A stretch of DNA of 64,000 bases from Sinohyriopsis cumingii. Lineage: Eukaryota > Mollusca > Bivalvia > Unionida > Unionidae. The stretch spans positions 14,105,220 to 14,169,219 of the forward strand of contig CM068839.1 of NCBI GenBank assembly GCA_028554795.2, read 5' to 3'. Of the stretch, positions 42,901 to 64,000 are shown piece by piece; the first letter of the stretch is position 1; each line of letters opens with the position of its first letter. The notes beneath the pieces were generated by a model. That model made no database searches, was not told the origin of the DNA, and saw nothing but the letters and a program-made list of their open reading frames with translations. The position numbers and the translations under genes were made by a program.

Positions 42901-45900
42901 TGTATATGACTATCCCAGAACACCAGACTCACAAGTATTCTCATTTTATGGGGAACATATGCATGTAATTATCTGTTTTTATCTGTCACCCCACTCACAA
43001 AAAGTATTTCACTGCCCATAAATATGAATGAAGTATCTTTTGCATTTTAAGACATATTTCACATGCCTGTTTGCCATTGCTTGTATAGTTAAATGCCTTT
43101 TTGCCATTGCCTGCAGAGTTACATTCCTTTTTGCCATTGCCTGCAGAGTTACATTCCTTTTTGCCATTGCCTACATAGTTAACTTGCTTATGTAGAATGC
43201 ATTTCTTTTTGCTTGCTTCACATTTTTCCTTACATCTTTTCAATGTCCCAATATCATATTTCCCAAATGCTTGTTAAACCATTTGTGTGGAATGATTTGT
43301 TCTGTTTATTTGTAATCTCAGTTCTTTTTCTATTATTCATTTTGAATAGCTGTTTAATAGTTCAAACAAGATAGACCCAGATCTGCCATCACATGATGCA
43401 CAGGCAAACTGGGTCTTGCATTATTTGTTATACTGAATAGTCCCAACAACATACATAAGCCCAGATATGTTGGTTCATTGTGTAAAGATAGATATGAGTC
43501 TGTTGTTAATATTTGGATCAACTTATATGCAAGCGTACAGTACCAGAAGAACTGTCGGTTTCATATAGTTTACATGTTTACCCTTTTCTTGATGATTTTA
43601 AAAGCTAGAAAAGTCAGTAATGTTTTTAATTCCAGAATGAATCATACACATGGATCAGTAAAACTTATTGTATTTTTCTGTCGGAATGCCTAAGCAGATT
43701 GACTCTTTTCCATTTTTTCAGGTGGTCAAGGATCTTGTCACAATATTCCCAGTACTGCGAGATTGGCTGGCGGACTTTCTGAAATGCAACTGCCAAATGA
43801 TAGCATCTGAGATAGGACACAATCTCTTAATTGAGCAGGTAATGTGATCTTGTGTGAATGAAGTCTAATTTGAGATACTATGTGTCAGCAACAAGTTAAG
43901 AATGAATGGCTTGTACTTGGATGAAGTGTAATTTAAGTCTGAAAAGTAACTTAATTTGGAGTGGCCATTACATGATGGGGGGGGGCTGTTTTTTTTTAAG
44001 AGTGATGGTTTGCCTAATGGTTATCTTTCTATTTTTCAGTGAAAATTTTAAAATATTTACACTGGAAATGAATGCATGCAGACAAGACAGATATAAGCAT
44101 CTAAAGCATGCATTTCTGAGAGCTAAAACAGTGCAAATTATAATTTCTACAAAGTCCAATGACTTTATTTCTATAAGAATTTACACTTGTAGGAGAAGAT
44201 TTAGAAATGAAACAACTAATTTGATTTTAATCATGTATAGAGTATATCAGTTTCAAGAATTTTTCACAGGGTAACCTTTTGCCAAAAATATGAGAAGAAA
44301 TATCCTTAGTTTTTTTGAAGGACTCCTTTTATGACTGAGTTGCTGTTGGGAAACTTAGCATTTATCTTTTTAGTGCCTTCTTCAAAAGATTGAATCATAT
44401 TAACCCAAAAAATTTCAATTATTTAAAATCATTTTTTTCCCCTGTAAAGTAGAATAAAAGTATTTTAATTTCAAAAGTAATTCTGAAGATATCATAACGA
44501 TAAACATTGTGGACTGTTTTCAGGCTGGGAATTAATGGTCGCATGGTGTTCTCATCATTTAGTTTATTCAAGATAAGTGTTAAGAAAATATGCTACACCG
44601 TTTTGATCTTATAGGCCTTTTACTGTTTGCAGGTGTTGAGACTGCTGCAGTACCTCGTGAAGTTTGGCTACTATAGTGATATTGAGGATGTGAGACACCT
44701 GTTGACTCCCCTTCTCTGTCAGCTGGATGGTAGGCATGATGCCCCATTTCCCAAAGACAAAGCAAAAGGTTGGCAGTCTTTCACTTTTAACTTTTGTTTT
44801 TCCACCTCATATTTCATTATCTGATTCTAGATAGCTTGAGTTAGTCTTTTTAAAATTTTTAAAAAAATTCAGCCAATACACTAAAATGATTCTTTTGTTT
44901 CCTGCTATTTCAGGTAGGGTGGTGCACTGTATGGGAATTATGGATGAGCTGATGAAAACAAACTTTATCCTGTATGTTTAAATGCTGACTCTGACTAAAC
45001 AATGACCAGATGACTACAATGACCAGATGACTGCAGTGACTGCAATGACCAGATGACTGCAATGACCAGATGACTATAATGACCAGATAAATACAGTGAC
45101 CAGATGACTACAGTGCCCAGATGACTGCAATGACCAGATGACTATAATGACCAGATGAATACAGTGACCAGATGACTACAATGACCAGATGACTTCAGTG
45201 ACCAGATGACTACAATGACTAGATGACTACAGTGCCCCAGATGACTACAGTGCCCAGATGACTACAATTACCAGATGACTACAATGACCCAGATGACTAC
45301 AGTGACCCAGATGACTACAATGATCAGATAACACAAATTGACCCCTTATTATTCAAGCTAGCAGACCTCTCCAAAGATATCTTGATATCCTATTTATCCT
45401 CATGTATTGATTGATACTAGCAAAGATATATTGATATCCTATTTATCCTAATGTATTGATTGATTCTAGCAAAGATATCTTGATATCCTTTTTATCCTGA
45501 TGTATTGATTGATTCTGCTAGACAAATCCATCTTCTTTCCTAAACAAAGTCTCGACTTTTTCAGTACTGATTTCTCTAGACTTGACTTTTAAACTTTTAC
45601 ACGATTATCCCATCACTGATCCCACTCATACTCAAAAAATATACATGTGAAATAAATGTATTTTAAGTTCACAGGCCTTTCAAAGATTATATTTGTCTGT
45701 GTGTATGAAGAGAAGAACTTGGGAAATTTTGGATGAAATTCAGTGAAAACTTGAATGATTTTGTTGAGGATGATAAAAGAAATAAAACTGATGAAATGTT
45801 TCGGGTATGTTTCTTAATTTGTTTCTGGAATTTTGCCTGATTTGATAGGCATAAAATGTAACACAGTGTGTGTCACCAGATATGATGTTGCTTATCCAAG

Positions 45901-48900
45901 GTTTTTTCTTCCTTTCCCCATGTGTTTCTTTGGTATATACAGTGGTGTTTATACATACAAATATCCTTTGTGAATGTGTGAATGATGTCAGGGTTTACAG
46001 GTGTTGCTTCTTGTTTATTTAGTAATACAAAGATAGTCAAATGTAAATTAAGCATCACTCCTTAATTAAATTCAACTATTGAAAGAAAAATGTGAGGCTG
46101 CAACATTTACCAAATGTGTAAAAATGTGTGCATGGTATACGATAACAGAAATGATGCCATTGAATTGAAACAATTCCAAACTATACCTCACCCCACCCCA
46201 CCCCTCATCAACTAGTGAATCCTGACGTTCATCTGACAGTTATGTATATGTAATACATTAACAGTGCTGACAATTACATATATATAATAAATTAACACTG
46301 TGCATAATGTAATACATGAACAGGGTGCATACTGTACCGCAGTATGCATTACATTAACAGTGAGCATACTGTACCACATAATGTATTACATTAACAGTAT
46401 GCATACTGTACCACACTCAGGTTGCTATCATTTTATTTCATGTATGTCCTTTACCTCTTGCTATAACTATTTCAGTTTGTAAATTATGATAAACAAAATT
46501 GGATAATGCAAATGGATGTATATACTGTACATAAACAAAAGGAGCTACAGTGACTTTGGAACTGTTCAGTGGTATGTAAAGTTCAAAAAATGTTTTGTTT
46601 AAAAAAATGTTACAGAGCCCAGGCTCTGACTCAGGCATCTTGTATAATGGTACAAGAATCAGTGACCTGTCTCATGCTACACAGTAACAGACTCCTGGAG
46701 GTATCATGGAAAAGTACTGGACAGGTCTATCATCAGGTGACACCACATCCTTAGATGCCAAGGTACATGTCTTAGAACATTACTGAATGCCTGGAAATAA
46801 CTATGCCCCAGCCTGCACACTCATCTTGCTTCAGTTGTTACATGAATTGCAGTCAAGTGTCTTTATGTTTGGAGGTTCATACTTACCAGCACCATTTTTT
46901 TTCTCAACCCAGAAGATTCAGCCTCCTGCGCATTAATCAAAGAGATTGTCAGGATTTTGCCACCTGAGTTCTGTCCCTATCCACTTATTACATCATTGGC
47001 CACTTATAATGTTCCTGCATATATTGATCTATTAAGAAATACCAGCCACCATTTAGACAACTGGTAGAGTTGCTGACATACTATATTGCTTTGAGAGACA
47101 GCTTCAGGTCCCAAGTGACAATAGGCCTTTATTTTCACATTGTAAACTCCCATAAGATTTCAACCTGCATGTTTATAAGACACAAACTGGTTTTTCATAT
47201 GAAAGTCCATTCTGTGGACAGGAACCCTGTGGGCTTGGGAATATTAAAACCTTCCTCGGTACATGCAGTCTAGAGTCCTTCCTATATGCCCAACAGCAGA
47301 TTTGGAATGTTGTGGCAACAGTGTCCATGCTTCATACTTTTATTTAGCAGTCTGAGTACAGCCCATCGAGAACCCCATTGATGGACATGCTTGGAGTCAT
47401 TCTCTCTTATGGCACATATCACAAAAGAGCAAGTCTACACTACTTTCAGGTGCCATGGTTGTACCTGGAAATCCACTGCATTCATAAAGATTTGCTTTGC
47501 TTTACATTTGTTTTTCTTGAAAGATCACTTTCAGGCTATCTCAGATTACAATCACTTTCTTCCAGCCTTTTTTCCTTGATCAGATCTGAGGCCAAGAAAC
47601 AGTCTGGCATTTTTTGGCAAAATACTCACAGGTCCAGTGACCCCTGTCTCAGTCTGTTTCCAATTAGAGATATCAGAGCAATAGCAAGTATTCCCCTACA
47701 GCAGGTCAAGCAGGAAAACTATCCTCCAAGCCCTTTCCCATGATGAGAACCAAGGGCCACAAATGTCCAGACATGATGAGACATGGGTCAGTAAGAACAG
47801 TTTCTCTTTCTGAGAGACCAAATTGATGCCCATTTCAGTTATCTCATTGCCTCAGAATGGTAGAGATTCTGCATTCATGACCAGTGGGTGTTGCAAATTG
47901 TCTCCGAGAGCTTCCAGATCATGTTGAATGTACTATCCCCATTGTCAATGGCTCCCTTTGCAACATACCTACCAAGAGATCTATTCAAAACTAATGTTTC
48001 GTAGCAAAAGATAAATACTTTTGTTACAAGAAAGCAAATAGAAATTGTTCACAATGCAATCTCACCAGGATTTTACTTCACACTGCTCTTGATTGCCAGA
48101 GCTGATGGCAAGCTTTGTTGAGTCATAAGTCTAATCTCATGCACTTCATTTGGGCACCATGATTCAGAATGATGACAAAAATACTAGTTCTCAAAGTGAT
48201 TCTGGAGAGCAACTTCATAGTCAGCCTAGACCTGCAAGATGCATATCTCCACAATCCCATTCACAAGTCTTCTTGGAAATTCACATTTATAGATGTGGCA
48301 TGCCAATTCAAGGCACTTTCATTTAGTCTGAAAATCTGTCCCAGGATCTTGACAAGAATGAAGTCATGCTTCAGAGTCACCTCCATGTCCATGACTTTCC
48401 AGGATGACATTCTTCAAAATCTGTATAAAGACAGGAAATTCATTGTTTCACTTTTGCTTCACATGGATACCTCGTCAACAAAAACAGATCTGATATCATT
48501 CCATCCCAACCTTCCACTCACTTGAGTATAAAGTTCAAAATCCACTTGAAATGAAGCTGTATCAATCTGGAATGTGCCTTAAAAATCATTTTATTGGTGT
48601 CTACCATTTGCTCAGAATTGAATTGCAGCCTGTGAATTTCTTTTACTCTTAGGTCTCAATGCAGCAGCGGATCTCTATTGTTCCAGTGTTGCCTGTTCAG
48701 AAGACCACTGTAGATTATATTTTCTATCCCAGTGGCAGCTGAAACTTTGACCACTAGACCAGGTGATCCCAATTTTGGTCCACATCTGGTCTCACCTCAA
48801 CATATGTGATAACCCCACTTAGTTTACTGCAGGCATCATATTGCAGAATCTGCAGTCAGAAATTACAATCTGCAAAAGATGCAAGAATGACAAGCAGGAG

Positions 48901-56000: not shown

Positions 56001-59000
56001 TGTTGAAAATGATAAACATTTACATTTGGAGAAAAAGGGGCAAATGTCAGAGGCCAGGTCTGGTTCTCTCCAAAGACAATAAATAATGTCAAGTGGTGAT
56101 ATGGGGGTGCATATGCATCCACAACATTAGAATATTAACAAGTGTACATGGAAATAAATGTTCCAAATTATCTTGTGAATCTGGATACCAGTTTATGGTC
56201 TATTCTAGTTCAGTATTTCCAAGAAAGTTGTTATCTTTTTCAGGACAGCAATGCATTTGCTTCATGATCTGATCATACCGGAATACAGCACTAGAAACTA
56301 TAAGAGGCAGCAGCTTGCCAGCACAGTCACCTGACATAAACATAATCGAAAATATATGGTTGTTTATTAAATGGTGGCTTCTTTTTAGACTCATTTGATA
56401 AATTGCAATGACAGTTTGTTAGTGAGATCCAGTGTATATGGATAGACTTTTCCCTGTCATATTCACAGTCTGTATAAGTATATTCCCAGACGATTAATGC
56501 AAGTAATATGATTGAAAGGATAATAACATTAATTTTCTGATTCCCATTGGAGGCCTCATTACCATTTTGAAAGTCAACTTGACTTTTCACAGAAAACAAA
56601 ATGGCAGTCATTTTACTGAATACTTTTTGTATGTGCTTGTATATTACAAGAAAGTCATTATTGAAATTGTCTAAAACAAATGCTGCATACACGTATGATT
56701 TTAGGAAGAACCAGAAGAAACAGAAAGAAGTGCTAAGGGAACTGAGGGAGATGTTCCATGCCTCAGCCATCTTTGATATTGAGACCACCACATCAGTGCT
56801 TTTGGTATGTTCTGTGTAAACCTTGAAGTCTTTTTTCTGTTTGTTAGGAAGTTTATTAAAAAGCATAAGTCTGTATTGGGTACTGCTTGTTATGGTATAA
56901 AGACTTTATGCTAATGACTTACGAATATTATCAACATGTTTATTGTTTGTAATCAGTTCTATATACAGTACTCTGTGGCAACATCCTGAAGTTCTTTTGT
57001 TTTCTTTATGACATGTTGGTTGTTCACCATGATGATCAGTCAGACATCGATATGGCCATGATGTACCATGGGATTGTATTTTGTATTTCATGGTCATAAA
57101 AAAGGGAAATTCAGTTTATGCAATACACGAAGAGCCATTAATTATTAATCATTGTTAGACTATTGACAGCTGTGAATTTCATCATCAGGGACCAAAACAT
57201 GGGGTTTGGGTAGTTATTTAACCATTATATTTCTAGAATAATAAATTAAGTTGATTTAAAAAGATAGGAATTTACTAAACTTTCTTGAGTTATATTTTCT
57301 ATTTCATATTCTGAGTTTCTTTCAATTTTTTTAAGGAAATGTGGATATTGTTCAGCTGTATGGACATATAAAGAGGACACATAATATGCATTTAATGAAC
57401 AGTTGATTGAAATTGCCTAAAATTTACAAATGTACTTAGAATTGCAATAGGTTCGAGTCTAGGATGCGGTTAATGTGGGTATGTGAGAAAGCTTGCCAGT
57501 AGCTTCTTGTGGGTCGGTGGTTCTTTCCTGGGTTCTTCCTCCACCATTGATACTGGCCGCCAACAAGAGTTGCAATAATTTTGTGCAGTGGCCAGTTTTG
57601 AACTCTCCAAATTATTATGCCATTGTGTCAGTCAGTCACAGCAAATATTCTATCCTTTCCATCCAATATTGAACCAGAAATATTTGCATCTATTTAGCAA
57701 CTTTTTAAAGTTATTTTTTATTGAACAAAAGATAAAATCTACAACCCTATTTATGCGTATTCTAATAAATTTATTTTCTGTCAGTATTGTGTTTATTATC
57801 TCATGTAAGAAAGAACATTATACATCATCATGTTCATTAACTGAGATTTTCCTACGTTTTATTTGTAAAAGGGGTAGCTACAGATGTAGCCTGTTTTACC
57901 CTCCCCCCAATTCATTCACTGACTTCTCCTAAAGAGAATAAAAAGTAATGTAACTAATATAATGAATTTTATTCCAGTTCAGCTCAAAGAAAGGTGTTAA
58001 ATTTCATACACAATGAAAGTTAGAAATGAACAAGTCAGTAGGTTTAATTTGTACTTTGTACTTTATAACCTACAGGATCTGTCAAACTACAAGTATGACA
58101 TGATGGTGACCAAAAGCCTGGACATTCTAAACAAGTTGTACTCATCCCAAAGTGACATGTTCCAGCTGGCACTGGAAGCACAGGTATGAAGAAAAGGAAG
58201 TAGCATCAAAGGAGAATGGGTCAAAGGTCATATGAGGGTAGAATGCTGAAACTATTACCTAGCATTTCATTATTCTTAAAAACAAGTCTTTAGATTGTTG
58301 CGATTGATGACATAATATAGTCCAAAAGTACAATTTTGACACTTTATTTACCATATACACTCACTTATAAGTCAAGTCAAACTGCAAACAACAAAGATCC
58401 TGATCTGCTATAACATAATGTACATGTAGATCAAGGTCTGTGTTATTTGTTCTACTGATTACTCCTAAAAAACTGCAGACCCAGGTCTGCTGGTGCATTT
58501 TGAAATGTCAGATCTGGGTATGTGCAGCTTGCAGTTGGACTCATAAGCAAGTATATATTGTAACAATTCATAATTTTTTAAAATTTGAATGTGACTTCAG
58601 CACAGCATCAACGTACAATAACTGTGTACCATGGTATTGTATTGAGTAAATTGTGGTGCTCAGCAAGTACATGTTACAATTCCATTTATGTTACTGATCA
58701 CTGTTGGCATAAACAGACATCTTGTAATAAAAAGCTATGCTGTGTTGTAGTAATTAATCAATTAACAAGTACTTCCTGTAACATCATGTCTCACCCTTTT
58801 TTTAAAATTTCTTCATTGTACCATCTTTGTAATGGCTTTATGAGCTTGCACAAAAACATTAATGTTGGTTTACACAAACATTAACACTGGCTTGCACAAA
58901 CACTTGAATATTGGTTTGCACAGAATTTTTAATGTTAGTTTGCACACAGAGGTTGACATTTGCTTGCATAAAAACTTTGCACAGAAGCTTTAAAATTGGC

Positions 59001-62000
59001 TTGCACAAAACCTTTAAAACATGCTTGCACAAAATGTTAACATTAGCTTGCACAATAATATTAACATTGACTTGCACAGAAACTTTAAAACGGCTTCACA
59101 AAATTTAACATTAGCTTGCACTAAAATGTTAAGATTGGCTTGCACAAAAACTTTAACACTAGCTTGCACATACACTTTAACCGTTGACTTGTACAAGAAC
59201 ATTAACACTGACTTGCAAATTTACTTGCACAAAAACATTTGCATTGATTTACTTGCACAAAAACATTTGCATTGGTCTTCACACAAACATTATCAAAAGT
59301 TTGCACAATAACTTTAGCATGGAGTTGACACTATGAACACCAATATCAGCATGTCTTTGTCTTGCACTTTTCTCTGATAAAGTTGATGCAATGAATTTTC
59401 AAATCCTCCAAATAAAATTATGAATGAGTTAAAACGTAGCATACAAATTTCAGTAACTTGAATGTTTTATAGTTCAGCATTGTAAGCACTGAAGTATTGG
59501 CTCCATTATAAATAAAAGTAGTTCCATTAATGTTGGTGCACATTTCCTTCATTGGGAAGTGGGTAACGTAAACTTCACTGCATTCAAAGCAGCTGTCTAT
59601 TTAAAATTTACAGAAGTGTTAAATTAAAAGTCTATTTTTAATATATACTATATATACTCATTTATAAAATGAGCCCAACTGCAATCTGCACAGACTCGGG
59701 TCTGCTGTCACAAAATGCACTGGCGGATCTGGGTCTATGCAATTTATTAGGAATAATCAGTAGGACAAACAACATAGACCTTGATCTGCAGGCACATTAT
59801 GTGATGGTAGATAGGATCTTTGTTCTTTGCAGTTTTACTCAACTTATAAGTGAGTATATATGGTATTATTAATGTATAAAACTGTAATATATCAATGCTG
59901 AATATTTTTCTGTCCCAAGTATAATAATAGGTTCTGCTCACATAGACAAATGTTGGACTGTAAATACCACAAATATGAAAGTCATGTTTTGATCATTTGG
60001 ATATTTTATAGGTTCTGGTAACGCACGACTCAGCCCGTGTTCATCGTGAGGTTCAGAGAAGCCTGCCAGTCCTGAGGCGCCTTTCCAAACAGAAACTTAA
60101 TGAGCAGCAGGTTCTACTTATGAATGAGATTCTCAATGAACTGGCAGAGTAAATAATCCATACATTATTTGATCAGGACATAATTATGAATGATATTCTC
60201 AATGAACTGGCAGAGTAAATAATCCATACATTATTTGATCAGGACATAATTATGAATGTGATTCTCAGTGAACTGGCAGAGTAAACAATCCATACATTAT
60301 TTGATCAGGACATAATTATGAATGAGATTCTCAATGAACTGGCAGAGTAAATAATCCATACATTATTTGATCAGGACATAATTATGAATGTGATTCTCAG
60401 TGAACTGGCAGAGTAAATAATCCAAACATTATTTGATCAGGACATAATTATGAATGAGATTCTCAGTGAACTGGCAGAGTAAATAATCCATACATTATTT
60501 GATCAGGACGTAATTATGAATGAGATTCTCAATGAACTGGCAGAGTAAATAACCCGTACATTATTTGATCAGGACATAATTATGAATGAGATTCTCAATG
60601 AACTGGCAGAGTAAATAATCCATACATTATTTGATCAGGACATAATTATGAATGAGATTCTCAATGAACTGGCAGAGTAAATAATCCATACATTATTTGA
60701 TCAGGACGTAATTATGAATGAGATTCTCAATGAACTGGCAGAGTAAATAATCCATACATTATTTGATCAGGACGTAATTATGAATGAGATTCTCAATGAA
60801 CTGGCAGAGTAAATAATCCATACATTATTTGATCAGGACATAATTATGAATGAGATTCTCAATGAACTGGCAGAGTAAATAATCCATACATTATTTGATC
60901 AGGATGTAATTATGAATGAGATTCTCAGTGAATTGGCAGAGTAAATAATCCGTACATTATTTGATCAGGACATAATTATGAATGAGATTCTCAATGAACT
61001 GGCAGAGTAAATAATCCATACATTATTTGATCAGGACATAATTATGAATGAGATTCTCAAAGAACTGGCAGAGTAAATAATCCATACATTATTTGATCAG
61101 GACGTAATTATGAATGAGATTCTCAATGAACTGGCAGAGTAAATAATCCATACATTATTTGATCAGGACGTAATTATGAATGAGATTCTCAATGAACTGG
61201 CAGAGTAAATAATCCATACATTATTTGATCAGGACATAATTATGAATGAGATTCTCAATGAACTGGCAGAGTAAATAATCCATACATTATTTGATCAGGA
61301 CGTAATTATGAATGAGATTCTCAGTGAACTGGCAGAGTAATTAATCTGTACATTATTTGATCAGGACATAATTATGAATGAGATTCTCAATGAACTGGCA
61401 GAGTAAATAATCCATACATTATTTGATCAGGACATAATTATGAATGAGATTCTCAATGAACTGGCAGAGTAAATAATCCATACATTATTTGATCAGGACA
61501 TAATTATGAATGAGATTCTCAATGAACTGGCAGAGTAAATAATCCATACATTATTTGATCAGGACATAATTTCTTTCATCACATGACTATTGTGATAACA
61601 CCTATTGAGCTCATAATGACATCATTACATCATGCTGAGGAAAGGAGTAAGTACACATGCATCCTGTTGTATTTCAAAGTCATTTCATGACACTGTTCTG
61701 TGGTTTGTTTGTAAAGTGATAAATAGAATCTTTCATTTATACTCATTTCAGATGAAATTTATGAAACTCACCAAATAATTGAATCTTTCACTTGCTGAGA
61801 CAAACAAAAGATATAAATTATTTGACTTCATACATAAATTTCATTTGAATTGAGCACTCATGTAAGTTCCTTAAATTTATATATTGCCCATTCACAGTCA
61901 ATACTTGTTCATTTCATGCTCAGATACCAGTGTATGTGCTTGTGTTTGCTGTTGATAGCAGCAATTAGTTGCCAGAATTGTATTATTTATTCAGACTCTA

Positions 62001-64000
62001 CAGAATCTTGCCAAATTCTTAAGAATTATAATGAATGTATTCCAAAAAAGAAGATTCAACCCATTTTTTTTGCTAAATATATTGTGCTTTATTTGTACTG
62101 TTACAGCAGTGTTCAGTGTGAGAATGGTTTTCACACTAAGACATTGGAGTTTATTTTCATTATTATATTAGTGTTCAGTGTAAGACATTGGAGTTTATTT
62201 TCATTATTATATTAGTGTTCAGTGTAAGACATAGGAGTTTATTTTCATTATTATATTAGTGTTCAGTGTAAGACTAGTTTTCACACTAGACATATTGTGC
62301 TTTATTTTTTTACTATTACAGTAATGTTCAGTGTGAGAATGGTTTTCATTAGACGTATTGTGTTTTAGTTTTTACTATTATAGTAGTGTTCAGTGTTTTC
62401 ACAAACTCTATAATATTAATTTATGAATTGGTAAATTGCATCATTAGTATCTATACTTGTTTTCAAGTTGATTCCAACTGCTGCAAACTGCACAGACCCA
62501 GATCTACCATCACATAATGTGCCAGGAGATGCACTTTATTAAATATCATGAGTTGAACAAGTGATGTAGACCCTGATGTCCAGTACATTATGTGATGGCA
62601 GATCAGAGTCTGTGTTGCAGTTTTACTCAACTTATAAGTGAATATATTTTGTGTCTCTGATAAGCTGCATGAAACATGATTAAATACAGTTTGCTACCTT
62701 ACTAGCTTATAAGTTAAATCCAACTGCAAACAACATATGAACATGGTCCACTGCATCTACTGTTAAGTTATGTGAGGAAATTGTTTCTTAACTAGTAATA
62801 CAAAAGATGAACTGTACAAATCTAAGGGTTCACAACTCTTTGTCACCAAATTTTATAATAAATACCAAATTTTTAAAAATACAAACAGTAGGTTAGCAAG
62901 GAAGTTCCATCAAGCTTAAATTATCATTATCAGTCAATGGAAAATTGAATCAACTGAACTAGATATGAAGATGTTAAAATTTCTATCACCTTTTCTAGGT
63001 TTTGTTTTCTGCCAAAGACACCACATGAGCCACATTTCATGAACCAGAACATAATGATTAGCCATGGTGAGTAGAAGTTTCTTTACTTTATAGACGATAT
63101 AATGCACACCCATATGCACATAGCACAGATCCAGATCTGCAGTCACATGATAGCCCATCTGTACAGACCAGTATCTGTTGTCACTTAATGGACCATCAAC
63201 ATTGTTACAGATCTGCAGTAGCACAATGGCTGGCAGCACAGACCCTTTGTTGTTGTTGTTGAGTTTAATTATAGTGGCATGCACACAATTGTGCATGTGC
63301 CACTCTTTTCTGACTGCACTGCAGTCTGCTAGTTGTTCCTGGGGAAGGGGATGGTGCCACCTCCCCCAGGCTTTTATGGATTCAAGGAACCCTGATAGTT
63401 TGGCCTCAATCTGTGGGTCCATAAAGGTCCCTACAGTTGAATGGTTGGCTGTCATTACCGAGTAATCAGCTAGGATTCCGGTCCTAGATGTCCTTAACGA
63501 ACCGTGTAATCGGCTAGGACTCTGGTCTCTTGCTAAATAAAGTATAAATAACATTCAATCTCTAAAAACATTAATTAATAAATAACTTAAAGAGGTAATA
63601 TCTAAAAACTTATAAATAACATAATGTAGGAAGCACACCCTAAACACCTCGACTAGTAATACCATAATAACCTTGAAAATCTCTCTTCATACATGATTTC
63701 TACTAAGAACCTCTATAAACAGCATAGAACATCCCCCCCTCCTTTTAGAACATTTTGAAGAGAAAAAAAAAATTCGAAAAAAATAAAAAATAAAGAAATC
63801 ACAAGAAACACCAGGCAAATGCAACAAGAAACTAGCGATGTAAAGCAAGCAGGACCGTTCCCAAGCTCTCCTTCCCACTAATGACAGCACAGACCCTTAT
63901 ATGTGGTTACATAATGGGATGGCCGCACAGGCCCAGGTATGTCTGCAAGCAACCTGTATGAAAACTTCCGCCCTGACTTTAACCAGATTCCAGGTGGAAT
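850..64000 (+). CDS. ITPR: IP3 receptor-like calcium-release channel gene, partial, 27 exons seen
   Basis: Gene-level entry; the exons follow separately. The product should be a large ER-membrane tetrameric channel that releases calcium. The visible part is cytosolic: MIR/beta-trefoil exons (850-6116), then RIH armadillo exons (about 11830-31247), then solenoid up to the window end. Joined exons give about 900 codons without a stop, with matching phases at almost every junction. Motifs aligning with vertebrate IP3R include QKLMR, SRKNALYFAK, RFLDLLNVLCVCDGVSIPNNQ, LPDAIRAKYCELIIGLFVDV, LVKFGYYSDIEDVRHLL, AMEVLDLLLTFQRN and FQLALEAQVLVTHD. By my alignment from memory this covers about human residues 260-1180. 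No SPRY exons are present, which argues against RyR. Similarity is well below that expected of a canonical animal IP3R, so I infer a divergent paralogue. The 5' exons, second RIH/RIH-associated region and pore are outside the window. Introns are mostly repeats. Confidence 0.85.
1066..1545. repeat. 53-bp minisatellite, 9 copies
   Basis: TTCCTGTTGGACTAGTAG starts each unit at 1066, 1119, 1172 and so on, with a constant 53-bp step. Units are near-identical. It lies in the intron after exon 1. Confidence 0.95.
1965..2110 (+). CDS. ITPR: IP3R-like exon 2 (MIR region)
   Basis: Acceptor TTTTTAG, joins the previous exon in phase (G|GT = Gly). Encodes GDVLRWEQQIRLRHMLTRHY then LCID and, near the end, TVFRLHSVLK. 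The RLRHM..RHYL pattern is a classic MIR strand (compare FRFKHLATGHYL in vertebrate IP3R), and TVFRL matches IFELDP. The donor is the weak GTGCAT. Ends in phase 0. Confidence 0.82.
2990..3310 (+). mobile_element. SINE-like element with CA-repeat tail
   Basis: The 5' part (3001-3060) looks tRNA-derived, with a B-box-like AGTTTGTTCC. The 3' part (TGCTACATGTCTG through ACTGAAAAATTGTTAAAG) recurs at 49895-50015. Ends in (CA)n. The shared 3' part and simple tail fit a retroposed SINE. Confidence 0.6.
3540..3830. repeat. diverged tandem repeat, about 70-bp unit, 4 copies
   Basis: Repeats of TTTATTTTATGAT..GATTTTT..TTTTGCTA..AGAAGGACAA. It ends shortly before the acceptor of the exon at 3858. Confidence 0.6.
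3858..3936 (+). CDS. ITPR: IP3R-like exon 3 (MIR region)
   Basis: Acceptor TTGCAAG after a T-run, donor G|GTAACT. Encodes ERDEIQFESYARIEHVLTGC then WLHALK. It aligns with the vertebrate NSYVRLRHLCTNTWVHS segment, the last MIR repeat. Phase 0 in, one base out. Confidence 0.8.
4660..5070. repeat. old diverged tandem repeat, about 180 bp, 3 copies
   Basis: Three blocks share CAT.AT.AAGCTAAGATAAT, then CTCACTTGCCC, then a pyrimidine-rich stretch. They are heavily diverged. The rest of 3937-6027 is AT-rich intron with no other feature seen. Confidence 0.45.
6028..6116 (+). CDS. ITPR: IP3R-like exon 4 (end of MIR region)
   Basis: Acceptor CTTGTAG, donor AAG|GTGAAG. Encodes DEDYEKKEFTNNDQEQSMYG and then LKWDGASLRK. 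It corresponds to the IDKEEEKPVMLKIGTSPVK loop of canonical receptors. The phase links to both neighbours. Confidence 0.75.
6262..6510 (+). mobile_element. tRNA-derived SINE
   Basis: B-box-like GGGTTCATGTCTC at 6335-6347, then a conserved core (AATGTGGGTATGTGG, CCAGTAGCTTCTCTGGGTC, CTGGCCACC), then GGTGTTAAACCC and (AAC)n. The core recurs at 57450-57580. This architecture is typical of SINEs widespread in molluscs (family knowledge; exact family not assigned). Confidence 0.75.
6657..6735 (+). repeat. fragment of dispersed repeat
   Basis: AGGGTTCCCACGCTACCAGG followed by AAATCGGGAAAAAGTC matches 20088-20150 (AGGGTTCCCATGCTACTGGG). A two-copy dispersed family in this window. Confidence 0.55.
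6755..6985. repeat. imperfect tandem repeat, about 75 bp, 3 copies
   Basis: GTAGATCACAGCAAACTACT then TTCATTTCTC..GTGACTTTGA repeats three times with small indels. Confidence 0.75.
7372..8135. repeat. 14-bp CATATG/CACATG minisatellite, about 55 units
   Basis: The unit is TACCATATGATAAG, with CACATG and GACAAG variants. The minus strand stays open in all three frames because the unit has no stop in that direction and 14 is not a multiple of three. The long minus-strand open frames rich in HMVLIIWYLS are therefore artefacts. Confidence 0.95.
9273..9287 (-). promoter_or_regulatory. CTCF-like motif
   Basis: Minus strand CCACTAGGAGGCACT differs at one position from the bilaterian CTCF core CCASYAGRKGGCRSY. 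Prediction by eye only. Confidence 0.35.
11465..11479 (-). promoter_or_regulatory. CTCF-like motif
   Basis: Minus strand CCGCTAGAGGGCACT fits the CTCF core CCASYAGRKGGCRSY except for G at position 3, a common variant. Same orientation as the motif 2.2 kb upstream, in the same intron. Confidence 0.45.
11591..11804. mobile_element. two-hairpin MITE-like element, eroded copy
   Basis: Ends ATACATATTCACTTGTATG..GAGTC and CAGTGAGTATATATGG match the family's terminal inverted repeats. It contains CAGATCTGTCATGACATAAT and GGGTCTATGTTGTTTG. It stops about 25 bases before the acceptor of the exon at 11830. Confidence 0.65.
11830..11955 (+). CDS. ITPR: IP3R-like exon 5 (linker to first RIH domain)
   Basis: Acceptor GTTCTGCAG, donor GAT|GTAAGT, 42 codons, phase 0 on both sides. 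Encodes VSASNESMYDDAYTVQLVQR then YDVSHFNFVAGMVPFLQNLIQD. It aligns with the [25 protein letters not shown] segment. A hairpin-rich MITE copy ends about 25 bases upstream of the acceptor. Confidence 0.8.
12306..12515. repeat. about 50-bp minisatellite, 5 copies
   Basis: ATTCATTCACACATAATGTG then TGTGCCAACTGTACATATGT repeats with small deletions. Lies just before the 17-codon exon. Confidence 0.85.
12587..12637 (+). CDS. ITPR: IP3R-like exon 6 (17 codons)
   Basis: Short exon with a strong TTTTTTCAG acceptor and a GTGAGT donor. Phase 0 on both sides. Encodes FQNDTILTARKTHGIIT. Its place matches the helix before the RIH core (NERRSVTKLLEDLVYF region). Supported by phase and splice sites more than by sequence similarity. 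Confidence 0.65.
13211..13645. repeat. 74-bp minisatellite, 6 copies
   Basis: CACATACTAAATGTTATAAA starts each unit, then GGAATGTCTTCAATCAGCAC. The array ends about 30 bases before a DNA transposon end. Confidence 0.92.
13673..18778 (-). mobile_element. decayed 5.1-kb DNA transposon with terminal inverted repeats
   Basis: The left end GGGCTGTTCCAGTAAAACAT then ATACCCCCCGGGGGATGGCAC is mirrored at the right end: reverse complement of 18735-18778 is CGGCTGTTACAGTAAAACAT then ATATCCCCCCGCCGGGACAGCAC. Subterminal CAACCCACAACAGAAG occurs near both ends (13727 and 18646). The flanks CTTAAGATAA and GTAAAGATAG may be a diverged target duplication. Minus-strand frames at 17803-18266 (MVESQQGLSLDD.., then CRLYLFNIPMS..HYGREK) could be the start of a transposase with a zinc-finger-like motif, but this is weak. 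The strand is guessed from them. No catalytic core was recognised. Confidence 0.75.
18829..19180. repeat. 36-bp minisatellite, about 10 copies
   Basis: TGTATACAGTCAATAGATAC then ATTGTGTTTATATA repeats. Begins about 50 bases after the DNA transposon's right end. Confidence 0.93.
19352..19622. repeat. 46-bp minisatellite, 6 copies
   Basis: GTGTGATGTTTCATTCTTCC then AAGGTACATTTATATTGATT. Ends about 40 bases before the exon at 19665. Confidence 0.93.
19665..19745 (+). CDS. ITPR: IP3R-like exon 7 (RIH, IP3-pocket helix)
   Basis: Acceptor ACATTGCAG, donor AGG|GTATGT, 27 codons. Encodes TLKDLKAFMLPGDQPEKDCQ then KLMRNLR. The QKLMR stretch aligns with NRERQKLMRE of canonical IP3R, which carries R504, K508 and R511 of the ligand pocket. 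K508 and R511 are kept, and R504 is Lys here. A 46-bp minisatellite ends about 40 bases upstream. Confidence 0.82.
20088..20232 (+). repeat. dispersed repeat copy
   Basis: Begins AGGGTTCCCATGCTACTGGG like 6657, and continues with a CCTTGAATTTTGC..GGAATTTTCTG segment. Similar wording (CCTTGAATTT..) occurs at 12720-12835. Confidence 0.5.
20240..21740. other. intron sequence without recognised gene
   Basis: AT-rich intron; nothing recognised beyond short chance open frames. Confidence 0.4.
21755..23520 (+). pseudogene. DIRS-like retrotransposon gag relic
   Basis: At 21757 a frame reads MGRTKCKQCKHLQGIDDNHN then ACLECKGCHL. The CxxC..HxxC..CxxC spacing resembles the N-terminal knuckle of DIRS1-type ORF1 proteins. 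Downstream, broken frames (SILSLVTTHLLLHPQEMEGV, KLLNDMEKLPAVKSYW) continue the same strand with stops. A two-hairpin MITE is inserted at about 22466-22664. It is dead. Family assignment rests on the first motif and on the DIRS relic 24 kb downstream. Confidence 0.5.
22466..22664. mobile_element. two-hairpin MITE-like element
   Basis: First hairpin CCCAGATCTGCC..GGCAGATCTGG, second hairpin CCTGATCTGC..GCAGATCAGG, outer ends ATTCACTTATAGG and AAAGTGAGTATATA. Inserted in the gag relic. Confidence 0.8.
23521..24381. other. intron sequence, nothing recognised
   Basis: AT-rich; no exon or repeat recognised. Confidence 0.4.
24382..24567 (+). CDS. ITPR: IP3R-like exon 8 (RIH domain)
   Basis: 62 codons; acceptor AATTACAG, donor AAG|GTTTCT. 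Encodes VIDLLVQLLQCPLKEGDEET at the start, then HMIRIFKEAYDVLHAYMIG, then KSRKNALYFAKYIDFFQTQF. Matches KQIFKLLQAPF and [20 protein letters not shown] of vertebrate IP3R. The YRK ligand triplet (Y567, R568, K569) reads SRK here. Confidence 0.9.
24568..25211. other. intron sequence, nothing recognised
   Basis: AT-rich spacer between two RIH exons; one of the few introns here with no visible array. Confidence 0.45.
25212..25334 (+). CDS. ITPR: IP3R-like exon 9 (RIH domain)
   Basis: Acceptor TTCTTCAG, donor CAG|GTATTG, 41 codons, phase 0 on both sides. Encodes GGIGLNVAQMIVELIRDKRK, then IVDRITKHHIDIYIDLLQHH. Aligns with the [20 protein letters not shown] segment of the IP3R/RyR RIH domain. Confidence 0.88.
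25335..26462. other. intron sequence, nothing recognised
   Basis: AT-rich intron with no recognised repeat. Confidence 0.4.
26463..26570 (+). CDS. ITPR: IP3R-like exon 10 (RIH domain) with GC donor
   Basis: 36 codons; acceptor GTGTCTAG. The exon ends ACACAG and is followed by GCAAGT, a GC-AG type 5' splice site. Encodes NYRFLDLLNVLCVCDGVSIP then NNQSYITEKWL. This is the best conserved block of the RIH domain across IP3R ([21 protein letters not shown]) and RyR (DVLCSLCVCNGVAV). Confidence 0.9.
26583..26775. repeat. 48-bp minisatellite, 4 copies
   Basis: GATTATTAAATAAGGCAACA then TAGTGTTTACTTGTTGGAAT. Starts about 12 bases after the GC-type donor at 26571. Confidence 0.92.
27475..27680. repeat. 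43-bp minisatellite, about 5 copies
   Basis: TAGCATAGAATATTTTGTGA then ATTGTAGCAAATTTAAGGAA. Confidence 0.88.
27924..28037 (+). CDS. ITPR: IP3R-like exon 11
   Basis: 38 codons; acceptor ATATTCAG, donor AAT|GTAGGT. Encodes KDSVYLTDRGQNINKRPNIV then YVSTDNGHGWTPLHEFVN. Position and phase fit the segment after the RIH core (NADILIETKLVLSRF region). It is not strongly conserved but is flanked by good sites and has no stop. Confidence 0.75.
28038..29584. other. intron sequence, nothing firm recognised
   Basis: AT-rich intron. A segment at 28670-28760 (TGAATGAAGTCTAATTTGAG..GGATGGTAA..TTAATTTGGAGTGGC) recurs at 43857-43965, so it is a dispersed repeat of unknown type. Confidence 0.5.
29585..29662 (+). 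CDS. ITPR: IP3R-like exon 12
   Basis: 26 codons; acceptor TTTAACAG, donor TAT|GTAAGT. Encodes RDIIGFNEDQYDYLMHQLEL then FKALSY. It matches the VLSYYRYQLNLFARMCL helix of canonical IP3R and the equivalent RyR helix. Confidence 0.85.
29745..29990. repeat. diverged tandem repeat, about 70 bp, 4 copies
   Basis: CATAGATAGAAATGTAATTG..GTCAGGACATG..CTTATGGGTTCAA..AATACT repeats with indels. Confidence 0.7.
30696..30865. mobile_element. hAT-type MITE, 170 bp
   Basis: Left end CAGTAGTTCCCAACCTTTTT and right end GTTGGGAACCATTTG form terminal inverted repeats of the well-known hAT CAGNGGTTCCCAACC type. Flanks CCTATAA and TCTATAA look like the target duplication, 6 of 7 identical. Confidence 0.75.
31115..31247 (+). 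CDS. ITPR: IP3R-like exon 13
   Basis: Acceptor TGTACAG, donor ATAG|GTAACT. Encodes GRNDYAIHAITREYGYLTWE then DSFLCITSDLLPDAIRAKYC then ELIIG. It matches GR..YLAIDKIS..DVDLVLRCM..E.LPYDLRASFCRLMLH. This motif is conserved in both IP3R and RyR. Leaves with one base of a codon. A 47-bp minisatellite starts just after the donor. Confidence 0.9.
31270..32046. repeat. 47-bp minisatellite, about 16 copies
   Basis: CACCATTTAATTGACCAGAG then CACTGGACAGATGACTTTAA. Starts just downstream of the exon ending at 31247. An inner block (31700-31880) has its own variant, GCCCTGGGCACATGACTTTG, showing local expansion. Confidence 0.93.
32225..32890. repeat. 41-bp minisatellite, about 16 copies, with GTAAGT in many units
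   Basis: GGGTGATGGACATCACTCAG then TAAGTGTTTGACAGTCAGTT. About ten units contain GTAAGT, a good 5' splice-site hexamer. Confidence 0.92.
33022..33510. repeat. 53-bp minisatellite, about 9 copies
   Basis: CTATGAAACAAGAATAAGTT then GAAATTCCTTTCCCTGGGAA. A pair-wise alternation of two variants (GAAATTCC.. and GGAGTTCC..) is visible. Confidence 0.92.
33966..33996. repeat. (GAT)n microsatellite
   Basis: Short pure GAT run upstream of the exon at 34118. Confidence 0.8.
34118..34227 (+). CDS. ITPR: IP3R-like exon 14
   Basis: Acceptor TTTGGCAG, donor TAT|GTAAGT. Enters with two bases that complete Gly. Encodes GLFVDVGNNYSVLDNPNICF then VYEYVGSKDSEREQSQY. LFVDVG continues the LMLHMHVDRDPQE block. 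Confidence 0.85.
34322..34512. repeat. 39-bp minisatellite, 5 copies
   Basis: ATTACTTTTGATTACATCCA then CAGTGCTTGCAATCCAAGG. 39 is a multiple of three, hence a periodic open frame on the minus strand. Confidence 0.92.
34531..34742. mobile_element. MITE-like element with about 50-bp inverted ends
   Basis: Left CTATTGTGAATTCATTTA..CAATTTTCATGG pairs with right CCATGAAAATTGG..AATAGTGAAATCACAG. A related end (CTGTGAAATCACGAATTTTC) lies at 14034, inside the 5.1-kb transposon. Confidence 0.65.
34850..36850. repeat. 25-bp minisatellite, 2 kb, interrupted
   Basis: TATGTACAAATAAGCCTATG plus GGAAA/GGGAC. More than 60 units. From about 36040 a longer block (..AAGTCTATGGTAACAATACTC..) recurs four times, so higher-order repeats exist. 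A 394-bp retroposon interrupts it at 35444. Confidence 0.93.
35444..35837 (-). mobile_element. retroposon (non-LTR-like 3' fragment), 394 bp
   Basis: Flanked by a perfect 9-bp duplication TATGGTGTC (35435-35443 and 35838-35846). On the minus strand it ends in a CAACAACAACG-like tail. It carries a 60-odd-residue frame starting MTANHSTVGTFMDPQIEATL. A copy about 95% identical over the shared 200 bases lies at 63248. A palindrome GCACAATTGTGC sits near the 3' end. Family not identified. Confidence 0.7.
36860..37810. other. intron sequence, nothing recognised
   Basis: AT-rich sequence between the 25-bp array and the microexon; overlapping open frames on both strands at 36900-37257 look like chance. 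Confidence 0.4.
37820..37855 (+). CDS. ITPR: IP3R-like candidate microexon (12 codons)
   Basis: A 36-nt stretch with a GCATTAG acceptor and a CAG|GTAGGG donor, phase 0 on both sides. It would insert VVQESSTCSGSQ between QSQY and VVKDLVTIF. It falls in the loop that is variable between receptors. Skipping keeps the frame, so it could be an optional cassette. Evidence is splice sites and phase only. Confidence 0.45.
38040..38222. repeat. 30-bp minisatellite, 6 copies
   Basis: TTCCATACAGCTGCATATCC then TAATTTACAT. Each unit contains a CATACAG pseudo-acceptor. Confidence 0.93.
38223..39920. other. intron sequence, nothing recognised
   Basis: AT-rich; small open frames only. Confidence 0.4.
39921..40141. 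mobile_element. two-hairpin MITE-like element, reverse order copy
   Basis: Ends TTGCTTATAAGTTGAGTC and CAACTTGTAAGCGAGTACAT. Hairpins occur in the opposite order to the 22466 copy, so it is inserted in the other orientation. Confidence 0.8.
40142..41260. other. intron sequence, nothing recognised
   Basis: AT-rich; no feature seen. Confidence 0.4.
41262..41405. repeat. imperfect tandem repeat, about 40-50 bp, 3 copies
   Basis: GCAAAGGTGTCAATCACTAA..TTCAACAAGCCCTAA repeats three times with changes. Confidence 0.65.
41775..42905. repeat. 43-bp minisatellite, about 26 copies
   Basis: AGCTAGGGAGTAACATAATT then CTCATTGTGTACAATTTTGT. From about 42490 a shorter variant lacking part of CATAATT alternates with the full unit, giving a two-unit higher-order pattern. 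Confidence 0.95.
43070..43190. repeat. 30-bp minisatellite, 4 copies
   Basis: TTGCCATTGCCTGCAGAGTT then ACATTCCTTT. Confidence 0.88.
43373..43543. mobile_element. two-hairpin MITE-like element, truncated
   Basis: AGACCCAGATCTGCCATCAC through ATCAACTTATATGCAAGCGT; the left end is missing or eroded. Confidence 0.65.
43722..43838 (+). CDS. ITPR: IP3R-like exon 16
   Basis: 39 codons; acceptor TTTTTTCAG, donor CAG|GTAATG. Encodes VVKDLVTIFPVLRDWLADFL then KCNCQMIASEIGHNLLIEQ. Matches the [33 protein letters not shown] helices of vertebrate IP3R. Confidence 0.85.
44633..44768 (+). CDS. ITPR: IP3R-like exon 17, two possible donors
   Basis: Acceptor TTTGCAG. Encodes VLRLLQYLVKFGYYSDIEDV then RHLLTPLLCQLDG, matching [24 protein letters not shown]. 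Two in-frame donors lie 39 bases apart: GAT G|GTAGGC (end 44729) and AAA G|GTTGGC (end 44768). The long form adds RHDAPFPKDKAKG, in the place of the ISKMAKGEENKG loop of vertebrates. Confidence 0.85.
44914..44971 (+). CDS. ITPR: IP3R-like exon 18
   Basis: Acceptor CTATTTCAG, donor CT|GTATGT. Joins exon 17 as G|GT (Gly). Encodes RVVHCMGIMDELMKTNFI plus a split Leu. Matches VMRSIHGVGELMTQVV of vertebrate IP3R. If unspliced it would hit a stop six bases later (TAA). A 17-bp minisatellite begins 30 bases downstream. Confidence 0.82.
45003..45335. repeat. 17-bp minisatellite, about 19 copies
   Basis: TGACCAGATGACTACAA units with small variants, right after exon 18. Confidence 0.93.
45362..45530. 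repeat. about 52-bp tandem repeat, 3 copies
   Basis: GCAAAGATATCTTGATATCC then TATTTATCCTAATGTATTGA. Confidence 0.85.
45711..45804 (+). CDS. ITPR: IP3R-like exon 19 (tentative)
   Basis: Acceptor TGTATGAAG, donor CGG|GTATGT. With exon 18 it completes Leu and then reads EELGKFWMKFSENLNDFVED then DKRNKTDEMFR. This acidic linker has no clear family match. The call rests on phase, an open frame and the donor. It occupies the variable loop between the VGEL helix and the KIIEIL helix. Confidence 0.5.
46240..46420. repeat. imperfect tandem repeat, about 37 bp
   Basis: TGCATACTGTACCACATAAT then GTATTACATTAACAGT, about four imperfect copies. Confidence 0.7.
46570..50400 (+). pseudogene. DIRS-like retrotransposon relic: reverse transcriptase and RNase H
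   Basis: At 48220-48420 a frame reads FIVSLDLQDAYLHNPIHKSS then WKFTFIDVACQFKALSFSLK, the DLxDAYLHIPIHxSSxxFLRF..YQF.ALPFGL signature of DIRS1-type reverse transcriptase. The catalytic YLDD region survives only as FQDDILQN. A frame ending at 47743 holds EAKKQSGIFWQN then SIPLQQ. At 49057 LSDNLTVLDYIRRQRGT and at 50237 NVQADSLSQLNLSVHAKWSI match the RNase H segment. Many stops and frameshifts are present and a SINE copy is inserted at about 49895. Tyrosine recombinase and terminal repeats were not found. Nonfunctional. Confidence 0.75.
49893..50046 (+). mobile_element. SINE-like fragment with CA tail
   Basis: GCTACATGTCTGCGGCATGA through ACTGAAAAATTGTTAAAG, then (CT)n(CA)n; same family as 2990-3310. 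It interrupts the DIRS relic. Confidence 0.65.
51780..52560. repeat. diverged tandem repeat, about 135-150 bp, 5 copies
   Basis: Blocks share ATCTTGTTATT..CTTCT..GAA, then TTTTCACTAAAAGAC, then AAATGGTGTC..GACCTCCA..GCCATCTT. They are heavily diverged, so the array is old. It carries no open frame. Confidence 0.6.
52561..53608. other. intron sequence, nothing recognised
   Basis: AT-rich. One exon joining phase 0 to phase 1 could hide here; none seen. Confidence 0.4.
53609..53708 (+). CDS. ITPR: IP3R-like exon 20 (start ambiguous)
   Basis: Donor CA|GTAAGC is clear. The frame that fits the next exon reads YSKESQKAVTQYRTSGRFEK then SKETEAIVKAKY. The obvious acceptor TATGTTAG at 53608 would need an incoming one-base phase, but exon 19 ends in phase 0. 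An acceptor at 53622 (AAAGAG) starting at 53623 fits phase 0. Either that is used or an exon in the preceding transposon-filled intron was missed. Confidence 0.6.
54198..54252 (+). CDS. ITPR: IP3R-like exon 21
   Basis: Acceptor GCACTCAG, donor ACT|GTAAGT. CA|G completes Gln, then AMEVLDLLLTFQRNLRLT. Matches [20 protein letters not shown], a conserved helix, and so fixes the frame of the exons around it. Confidence 0.85.
54535..55065. repeat. GAA/CCATCC-rich minisatellite, 9-21 bp units
   Basis: Mixed units AATGAACCATCCAATGAAAAC and AATGAATGAAA. The F/H/W/S-rich minus-strand open frames are products of this array. Confidence 0.92.
55190..55299 (+). CDS. ITPR: IP3R-like exon 22
   Basis: Acceptor TTGTTTCAG, donor AA|GTAAGT. 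Encodes AFVEKFKVAEQVGVKRRNPS then TMEPLLYETYDPTDFSK. Phase 0 in, two bases out. It sits where vertebrate receptors have the CLLCIFKREFDESNS segment. Confidence 0.8.
55453..55655. mobile_element. two-hairpin MITE-like element
   Basis: TATACATACTCGCTTATAAG start, hairpins GATCTGC..GCAGAT and ACCCAGCTCTGCC..GTCTGGATC, then TTGCAGTTGGACTAG. The right end is eroded. Confidence 0.72.
55656..56704. other. intron sequence, nothing recognised
   Basis: AT-rich; the long minus-strand open frame reaching 56866 is discussed under rejected items. Confidence 0.4.
56705..56804 (+). CDS. ITPR: IP3R-like exon 23
   Basis: Acceptor ATTTTAG, donor TTG|GTATGT. Completes Lys, then KNQKKQKEVLRELREMFHAS then AIFDIETTTSVLL. 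SVLL aligns with [16 protein letters not shown]. A long antisense open frame covers this exon but has no sign of being a gene. Confidence 0.82.
57445..57580 (+). mobile_element. tRNA-derived SINE, truncated
   Basis: B box GGTTCGAGTCT at 57450-57460, then AATGTGGGTATGTGAGAAAG, CCAGTAGCTTCTTGTGGGTC, CTTCCTCCACC and CTGGCCGCC. Same family as 6262-6510. Confidence 0.75.
58076..58183 (+). CDS. ITPR: IP3R-like exon 24
   Basis: 36 codons; acceptor CCTACAG, donor CAG|GTATGA. Encodes DLSNYKYDMMVTKSLDILNK then LYSSQSDMFQLALEAQ. Matches [32 protein letters not shown] almost residue for residue in spacing. Confidence 0.9.
58351..58559. mobile_element. two-hairpin MITE-like element
   Basis: ATACACTCACTTATAAGTC start, hairpin GATCCTGATCTGC..GTAGATCAAGGTC, hairpin AGACCCAGGTCTGC..CAGATCTGGG, ATAAGCAAGTATATATT end. 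Follows exon 24 by about 170 bases. Confidence 0.8.
58850..59315. repeat. 24-bp minisatellite, about 19 copies
   Basis: TTGCACAAAAACTTTAACAT then TGGC, with variants. 24 is a multiple of three, giving periodic open frames on both strands. Confidence 0.92.
59649..59862. mobile_element. two-hairpin MITE-like element, best inverted ends
   Basis: Left TATATACTCATTTATAAAAT and right ACTTATAAGTGAGTATATAT are inverted repeats of about 24 bases. Between them lie hairpins GGGTCTGC..GGATCTGGGTC and ACCTTGATCTGC..GATAGGATC. Confidence 0.82.
60012..60148 (+). CDS. ITPR: IP3R-like exon 25, 3' end amplified in tandem
   Basis: Acceptor TTTTATAG, donor GA|GTAAAT. Encodes VLVTHDSARVHREVQRSLPV then LRRLSKQKLNEQQVLLMNEI then LNELA. 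Matches [23 protein letters not shown]. The last 29 bases of the exon, its GTAAAT donor and 35 bases of intron form the first unit of a 66-bp, 22-copy array running to 61572. Only the first donor keeps an open frame, because every unit reads GAG TAA. Confidence 0.88.
60120..61572 (+). repeat. 66-bp array of exon end plus splice donor, 22 copies
   Basis: Unit starts ATGAATGAGATTCTCAATGA, then ACTGGCAGAGTAAATAATCC, then ATACATTATTTGATCAGGAC, then ATAATT. ATG positions run from 60120 to 61506 at exactly 66-bp steps. The first 29 bases are the coding end of exon 25, followed by the donor GTAAAT. Confidence 0.97.
62105..62395. repeat. imperfect tandem repeat, about 48-70 bp
   Basis: TATTAGTGTTCAGTGTAAGA then CATTGGAGTTTATTTTCATT. 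Shorter and longer variants are mixed. Confidence 0.8.
62450..62648. mobile_element. two-hairpin MITE-like element
   Basis: CTATACTTGTTTTCAAGTTG start, AAACTGCACAGACCCAGATC hairpin arm, TTTTACTCAACTTATAAGTG end. A partial left end of another copy follows at 62697-62766. Confidence 0.75.
62999..63066 (+). CDS. ITPR: IP3R-like exon 26
   Basis: Acceptor CTTTTCTAG, donor CATG|GTGAGT. GA|G completes Glu, then FCFLPKTPHEPHFMNQNIMI then SH. The phases fit the exon before and the proposed exon after. It follows exon 25 as ..ILNELAEFCF, comparable to the start of the second RIH region. Confidence 0.78.
63116..63247. mobile_element. two-hairpin MITE-like element, left part, split by an insertion
   Basis: CACAGATCCAGATCTGCAGT and repeated ..CTGTACAGACC.., ..CAGATCTGCAGT.. 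motifs. It continues at 63885 after the inserted retroposon. The right part reaches the acceptor of the last exon. Confidence 0.6.
63248..63884 (-). mobile_element. retroposon with inverted 5' part, 637 bp
   Basis: Flanked by a 14-bp duplication CAGCACAGACCCTT (63234-63247 and 63885-63898). Bases 63248-63460 match the 3' part of the 35444 copy. 63690-63884 match the rest of that copy but in opposite orientation. 63461-63689 are extra sequence absent from the shorter copy. A 3' (CAA)n tail on the minus strand and a 5' inversion fit target-primed (twin-priming) retroposition. A minus-strand frame SRTGILADYSVMTANHSTVG spans extra and shared parts; function unknown. Confidence 0.72.
63937..64000 (+). 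CDS. ITPR: IP3R-like exon 27, cut by window end
   Basis: Acceptor AGGCCCAG, with an alternative CACAG six bases upstream in the same phase. Reads G|GT = Gly then MSASNLYENFRPDFNQIPGG, still open at the last base. The acceptor and first bases resemble a hairpin arm of the MITE family described below (GCACAGACCCAG..CTGC). The polypyrimidine tract is poor. Confidence 0.55.

Follow-up and report, generated by a model that had tools for sequence, protein, structure and literature searches.

Twenty-two tandem copies of a likely exon end and its splice donor in a 66-bp minisatellite of an ITPR-like gene from Sinohyriopsis cumingii

Host gene and likely exons

The window, by which we mean the whole 64,000-nucleotide stretch of S. 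cumingii contig CM068839.1 that was analysed, has a G+C content of 34% and carries a gene which, judging by its predicted peptides, is a divergent relative of the IP3 receptors (ITPR family), that is, a calcium-channel-like gene. Six exon peptides were searched against Pfam. One matched RYDR_ITPR (the RIH domain) above the cut-off (E 1.7e-8), another matched MIR below the cut-off (E 2.7e-4) and the remaining four matched no ITPR family. For comparison with the PDB we used a list of 17 exons, chosen by hand, in which four starts (24377, 31118, 54197 and 56706) do not coincide exactly with an acceptor. When 16 of the 17 peptides were joined, the search returned IP3 receptor type 1 (IP3R1) with an E value of 6.8e-9, which is a sum over stretches none of which passes alone. 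Stretches in receptor order correspond to IP3R1 500-626, 727-786, 848-896 (0.0 bits) and 1060-1126, and this order is broken by a sixth stretch, in which the first RIH region aligns with 1198-1305 of the receptor. The weak MIR match and the RIH match come in the order known from IP3 receptors, as expected for a member of the ITPR family.

The likely exon upstream of the array (58076-58183, forward strand) is in phase 0, encodes DLSNYKYDMMV...LALEAQ and was recognized from its open frame and splice signals. The likely exon that would have seeded the array (60012-60148, forward strand) is 137 nt long and encodes VLVTHDSARV...NEILNELA+GA; it is entered in phase 0 and is left with two nucleotides of a codon. 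Its coding score of 24.9 is the highest listed in the window, although the few sequences used for training included the exon itself. It has a weak acceptor (score 0.9). The frame of this exon fits that of the likely next exon, FCFLPKTPHEPHFMNQNIMISH, at 62999-63066 (forward strand), which has a donor score of 10.0 and an acceptor score of 3.4. Exon 62999-63066 is open in a single frame, and this frame requires two incoming bases, as given by the donor at 60149. The exon does not figure among the segments with coding scores above 9 bits, nor in the computed exon chain, a home-made chain of 12 exons which misses many likely ones, has its last end at 60148 and was not used for conclusions. Between this exon and the end of the window at position 64000 no later exon was seen, such as would encode the C-terminal channel domain of an IP3 receptor. 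Vertebrate IP3 receptors extend well beyond the point at which the array lies, with chain lengths of up to 2771.

The peptides of exons 58076-58183 and 60012-60148 together align with IP3R1 1060-1126 with a score of 79, which was reached by none of 5000 shuffles. The junction with the next exon, NEILNELAE/FC against KEILIRLSK/LC in IP3R1, was matched as well by 1381 of 5000 shuffles and is not significant alone; the junction peptide was not recognized as ITPR by the Pfam or PDB searches. The frame and the splice signals make an exon end at 60148 likely, short of proof, and on the same grounds exon 60012-60148 would be joined to 62999-63066. An exon end at an upstream GTTCTA donor, named in the original prediction as the alternative that would leave the repeated unit purely intronic, was tried and rejected by frame: joined to exon 62999-63066 it leads to a stop at the tenth codon past the junction, in the next exon. 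This site has a matrix score of 0.9 against 3.5 for the first donor of the array (donor 1), but U1 is predicted to pair a little more strongly with the GTTCTA site (-5.8 kcal/mol) than with donor 1 (-4.5 kcal/mol).

Several open frames elsewhere in the window were also noted. One, at 48163-48522, reads FIVSLDLQDAYLHNPIHKSSWKF and presumably resembles part of a DIRS-type reverse transcriptase; it had no Pfam match. Similar open frames at 35441-35731 and 63126-63533 (minus strand), TANHSTVGTFMDPQIEA...LSGFLESIKAWGRWHHPLPQEQLADC, are probably copies of a dispersed repeat, and the one copy of this pair that was searched had no Pfam match. In all, guesses at mobile elements among the open frames outside the gene found no Pfam support (four peptides), and no part of the window matched an Rfam family at its gathering score.

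Anatomy of the 66-bp array

TRF reports a minisatellite with a period of 66 bp and 22.0 copies at 60118-61571 (forward strand), with 96% matches and 0% indels, in agreement with the original prediction of 22 units at exact spacing. Such an array is not a chance product; it lies far beyond chance. Its start at 60118 falls inside the likely exon 60012-60148. The range first given, 60012-61572, began at the likely start of this exon, and the array proper runs from 60118. Each unit, as tabulated, consists of 31 exon bases and 35 intron bases, the intron part including GTAAAT; the exon share may be put at 29-31 bases, two bases at the array edge being ambiguous. The parts of the earlier division into 29 coding bases, GTAAAT and 35 intron bases do not sum to 66.

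The units differ little from one another. Any two of the 22 full units (60118-61569) differ on average at 2.06 of their 66 bases, and nine of the 22 are identical to the consensus, among them unit 1, which carries the likely exon end, and units 20-22. Both the donor GT and the motif GAGTAA are intact in all 22 units, and GTAAAT is found in 20, the exceptions being unit 3 (GTAAAC) and unit 19 (GTAATT), so that the row of near-identical donors and the GAG TAA in the exon frame of every unit were correctly described at the outset. A change of AAT to AGT (N to S) occurs in five of the 22 units. A change of A to G at unit position 63 (seven of 22 units) makes an extra GT, GAC/GTAATT or GAT/GTAATT, at 60510, 60708, 60774, 60906, 61104, 61170 and 61302; these sites score 4.0-4.4, slightly above the copied donor (3.5).

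The 13 distinct variants among the units are partly arranged in an ordered pattern of six units. Variants common to units 6-11, 12-17 and 18-20 recur in register, which marks out a higher-order pattern with a period of six units (396 bp) at 60448-61437 (forward strand). Seven variants are shared at lag 6 against a shuffled mean of 2.42, with 64 of 20000 shuffles of the unit order doing as well; when all lags from 1 to 11 are allowed for, the figure is 452 of 20000. The six-unit periodicity is a modest signal. It is consistent with duplication in six-unit blocks of 396 bp, and the pattern points to probable changes of copy number in the past.

The introns of the window are rich in minisatellites, with 73 TRF rows that were merged by hand, small rows left out, into 28 arrays covering 11,748 bp of the 64 kb. 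Examples of other arrays lie at 7361-8135, 31276-32043, 35846-36846 and 41778-42904. Random circular shifts of the arrays touched on average 3.68 of the 17 chosen exons compared with the one observed (probability of one or none 0.10), and therefore the overlap of an exon with an array needs no special cause. Two more arrays approach likely exons to 29 and 45 bases (31118-31276 and 19620-19665) and do not include the exon edge. When 34 exon edges were compared with the whole window, tandem copies were found for the array donor only; two other edges had one short match each and 31 matched only themselves. A search of viral contigs with 40 bases of the unit gave no exact match, a result of little information as the collection is not an animal one.

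Copied donors and explanations of the array

Donor 1, AGA/GTAAAT (CAGA/GTAAAT), lies at 60149-60154 on the forward strand. Among the 22 copied donors it alone leaves the frame open into exon 62999-63066, and with this exon the original claim that the protein stays open from the first donor only holds. Donors 2-22 follow on the same strand every 66 bases (60215, 60281 ... 61535), spanning 60215-61540. Isoforms via donors 2, 3 and 22 were translated and all end after ...LAE, at a stop that precedes the junction by 62, 128 and 1382 nt, respectively. Donors 4-21 would likewise give a premature stop because every such exon contains the TAA of unit 1, as had been anticipated for all later donors. 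The phase is kept at every copied donor because the unit amounts to 22 codons. The stop in each unit is automatic and no special device, because a phase-2 intron starting with GTAA always reads xxG TAA. Nonsense-mediated decay usually requires a stop at least 50-55 nt before a junction, and the stops from donors 2, 3 and 22 lie beyond this limit.

A simple frequency matrix rates donor 1 as weak: its score of 3.5 is the second lowest of the 17 chosen exon ends. The best predicted U1 pairing of this donor is CAG-(bulged A)-GUAA, at -4.5 kcal/mol. All 22 copied donors are about equal in predicted strength, donor 1 being no stronger than the rest. A further 17 GTs are present inside the array, nine of which score above 3.5, and all of them lie downstream of the stop in unit 1. 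With donor 1 weak and nine other GTs of the array scoring higher, these predictions suggest that the copied donors could compete on even terms.

In our judgement, the array is probably a mirage, as tandem duplications of exon-intron boundaries have been called, in which a minisatellite took in the end of an ITPR-family exon, donor 1 is the site in use and the built-in stop disposes of errors. It would have originated when 66 bp spanning an exon-intron boundary of the ITPR-family gene were duplicated in tandem, and would have grown by exchange of repeat units, probably including six-unit blocks of 396 bp. Donor 1 would normally be chosen, and the 21 downstream copies would be intronic passengers of an array that is presumably neutral. 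If a later donor were used by mistake, translation would end at the stop with which the intron opens, and the resulting mRNA should go to nonsense-mediated decay. Donor 1 is most likely to be in normal use because it yields the shortest exon, of an ordinary size (137 nt), and the sole open frame; this usual choice, with a stop awaiting every slip, would be why the array is tolerated.

The near equality of the 22 donors, together with the nine higher-scoring GTs and the position of the later stops more than 50 nt ahead of the junction, would also suit a different role, in which a fixed share of the transcripts is spliced from downstream donors and then destroyed, and in which the length of the array tunes the output of the gene. 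Use of two downstream repeat units as donors has a precedent in human IFI6, as far as the excerpted text goes (PMC4526556). The stop is nonetheless the automatic outcome of a phase-2 intron starting with GTAA, and the available parts of the amphioxus papers report mirages without disturbance of regular splicing (PMC3087553, PMC3902484). We regard such a role, the brake of the original prediction, as unlikely. A further form of it, a brake tunable by length in which the 21 stop-sealed decoy donors drain ITPR-like transcripts in proportion to copy number, appears quite unlikely to us; if it were true, an array mutating by repeat exchange would set expression allele by allele.

Alternatively, the TAA of unit 1 could be where coding ends, within a retained intron or a last exon, giving a short protein with the array as 3' untranslated sequence. 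GAG TAA does follow in frame directly after exon 60012-60148, and exon 62999-63066 is missing from both the exon chain and the coding list. We nevertheless find this improbable: exon 62999-63066 is flanked by a good donor and a fair acceptor and is open only in the frame of donor 1, vertebrate IP3 receptors run well past this point and the consensus unit, read by eye, contains no AATAAA.

It is also conceivable, and in our view very improbable, that the array aids splicing or is structured, a row of weak U1 sites or a hairpin in each unit helping or hiding the donors while only donor 1 is used. The low matrix score of donor 1 would be in keeping with this. The minimum free energy stem of the unit pairs the donor, at 60136-60181 and at the equivalent place in every unit, and the variants spare the predicted stem, helix 2 being paired in 142 of 143 cells. 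Six of the 13 variable columns fall in the 12-base loop, which takes up 12 of the 66 positions (P 0.009, for a question asked after the fold was seen). Variants that spare the stem and crowd the loop may be read as a weak hint, observed after the fact. In contrast, the fold is no more stable than shuffled sequences (z -0.22 for the unit, -0.89 for the 46-nt stem and +0.47 for two units), no stem pair is changed on both sides and shuffles do equally well by every measure. Predicted accessibility of the donor likewise gives no clear signal, with a median of 0.019 against 0.016 for all positions and a mean of 0.025 against 0.055. A sequestering hairpin round each donor was not adopted, its stability being no better than that of shuffled sequences.

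Nine identical units out of 22, and an amphioxus mirage that a supplement legend describes as aberrantly assembled in the draft genome (PMC3087553), might raise the thought of an assembly artefact of a shorter array, but 13 distinct variants, part of them in six-unit order, are not expected from the stuttering of one unit, and we take this to be extremely improbable. The exact copy number of 22 may be wrong.

With 22 nearly identical donors spaced exactly 66 nt apart in a single pre-mRNA, the locus would provide a very clean test of positional donor ranking, in which junction counts alone would rank equal donors by position for the choice made by the spliceosome. The original proposal of a natural experiment in donor choice is a reasonable one. 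The locus also suggests that the minisatellites of array-rich introns can absorb coding bases, tying the exon end to the array, and repeat exchange could bring variants of the array, such as AAT to AGT (N to S), into the protein.

Comparison with known systems

The minisatellite of human IFI6 has a unit of 12 bp, and a 1995 paper by Turri, going by its title, reportedly deals with a human 6-16 minisatellite with multiple splice donors. In this gene, also known as 6-16 or G1P3, two downstream minisatellite units serve as donors and give protein isoforms, according to the part of the source available (PMC4526556). IFI6 resembles the present locus, as far as the excerpts go, in that a minisatellite offers several splice donors at one exon (PMC4526556, PMC3618361). 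It differs in its much shorter unit and in its outcome, as isoforms are produced there whereas every later donor yields a stop here. Repeat donors that lead to protein isoforms are not what we find: the in-frame TAA of unit 1 bars longer proteins.

Human segmental duplications, in the available portion of their description, contain variable internal tandem repeats where exons border on introns, and these repeats are linked to intron gain (PMC2812944). As in the present array, growth of a minisatellite at the boundary alters which splice sites exist; unlike it, the arrays described in that portion are short, with units of 30 bp on average in four copies (PMC2812944). The minisatellite of DDX3Y was considered as a comparison and set aside, since in the excerpted account it starts transcripts and is without a row of copied donors (PMC3039753). 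In the open-licence literature, nothing was found that links a trisphosphate receptor gene, a minisatellite and splicing.

The closest parallels are the mirages of amphioxus, tandem duplications of exon-intron boundaries which the available parts of two papers report in the globin genes BflGb6 and BflGb9, in Adh3, in troponin C (TnC) and in PGBD5, and which are said there not to interfere with regular splicing (PMC3087553, PMC3902484). In the excerpts of the first paper, BflGb6 has six and three units in two haplotypes, the globin unit measures 150-160 bp, BflGb9 has the 3' boundary of exon 2 duplicated and the Adh3 mirage has units of 10-72 bp and somatic instability; RT-PCR suggests that splicing at the mirages is normal and that unused signals remain (PMC3087553). 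The second paper, in the text available, describes 60- and 108-bp repeats and a triplication in PGBD5 and states that no aberrant mRNAs are generated by the Adh and TnC mirages (PMC3902484).

The present array shares with these mirages, as they appear in the excerpts, a minisatellite-like repeat over an exon-intron boundary with its splice signals and a similar unit size. They sit next to a working exon, as described there, and here the adjoining exon, 60012-60148, is a predicted one. The edges of the BflGb6 cluster are, by the same partial account, excluded from homogenization, whereas the present array has consensus copies both as unit 1 and as its last three units. Two further differences are the host, which here is an ITPR-like gene, and the size of the array, since 22 copies exceed the counts given in those excerpts (six and three in BflGb6, a triplication in PGBD5). 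Given an exon end at 60148, all 22 units contain an exon end, a splice signal and an intron start, as the units of a mirage do, and we judge the array to be a probable large new case of this already described kind.
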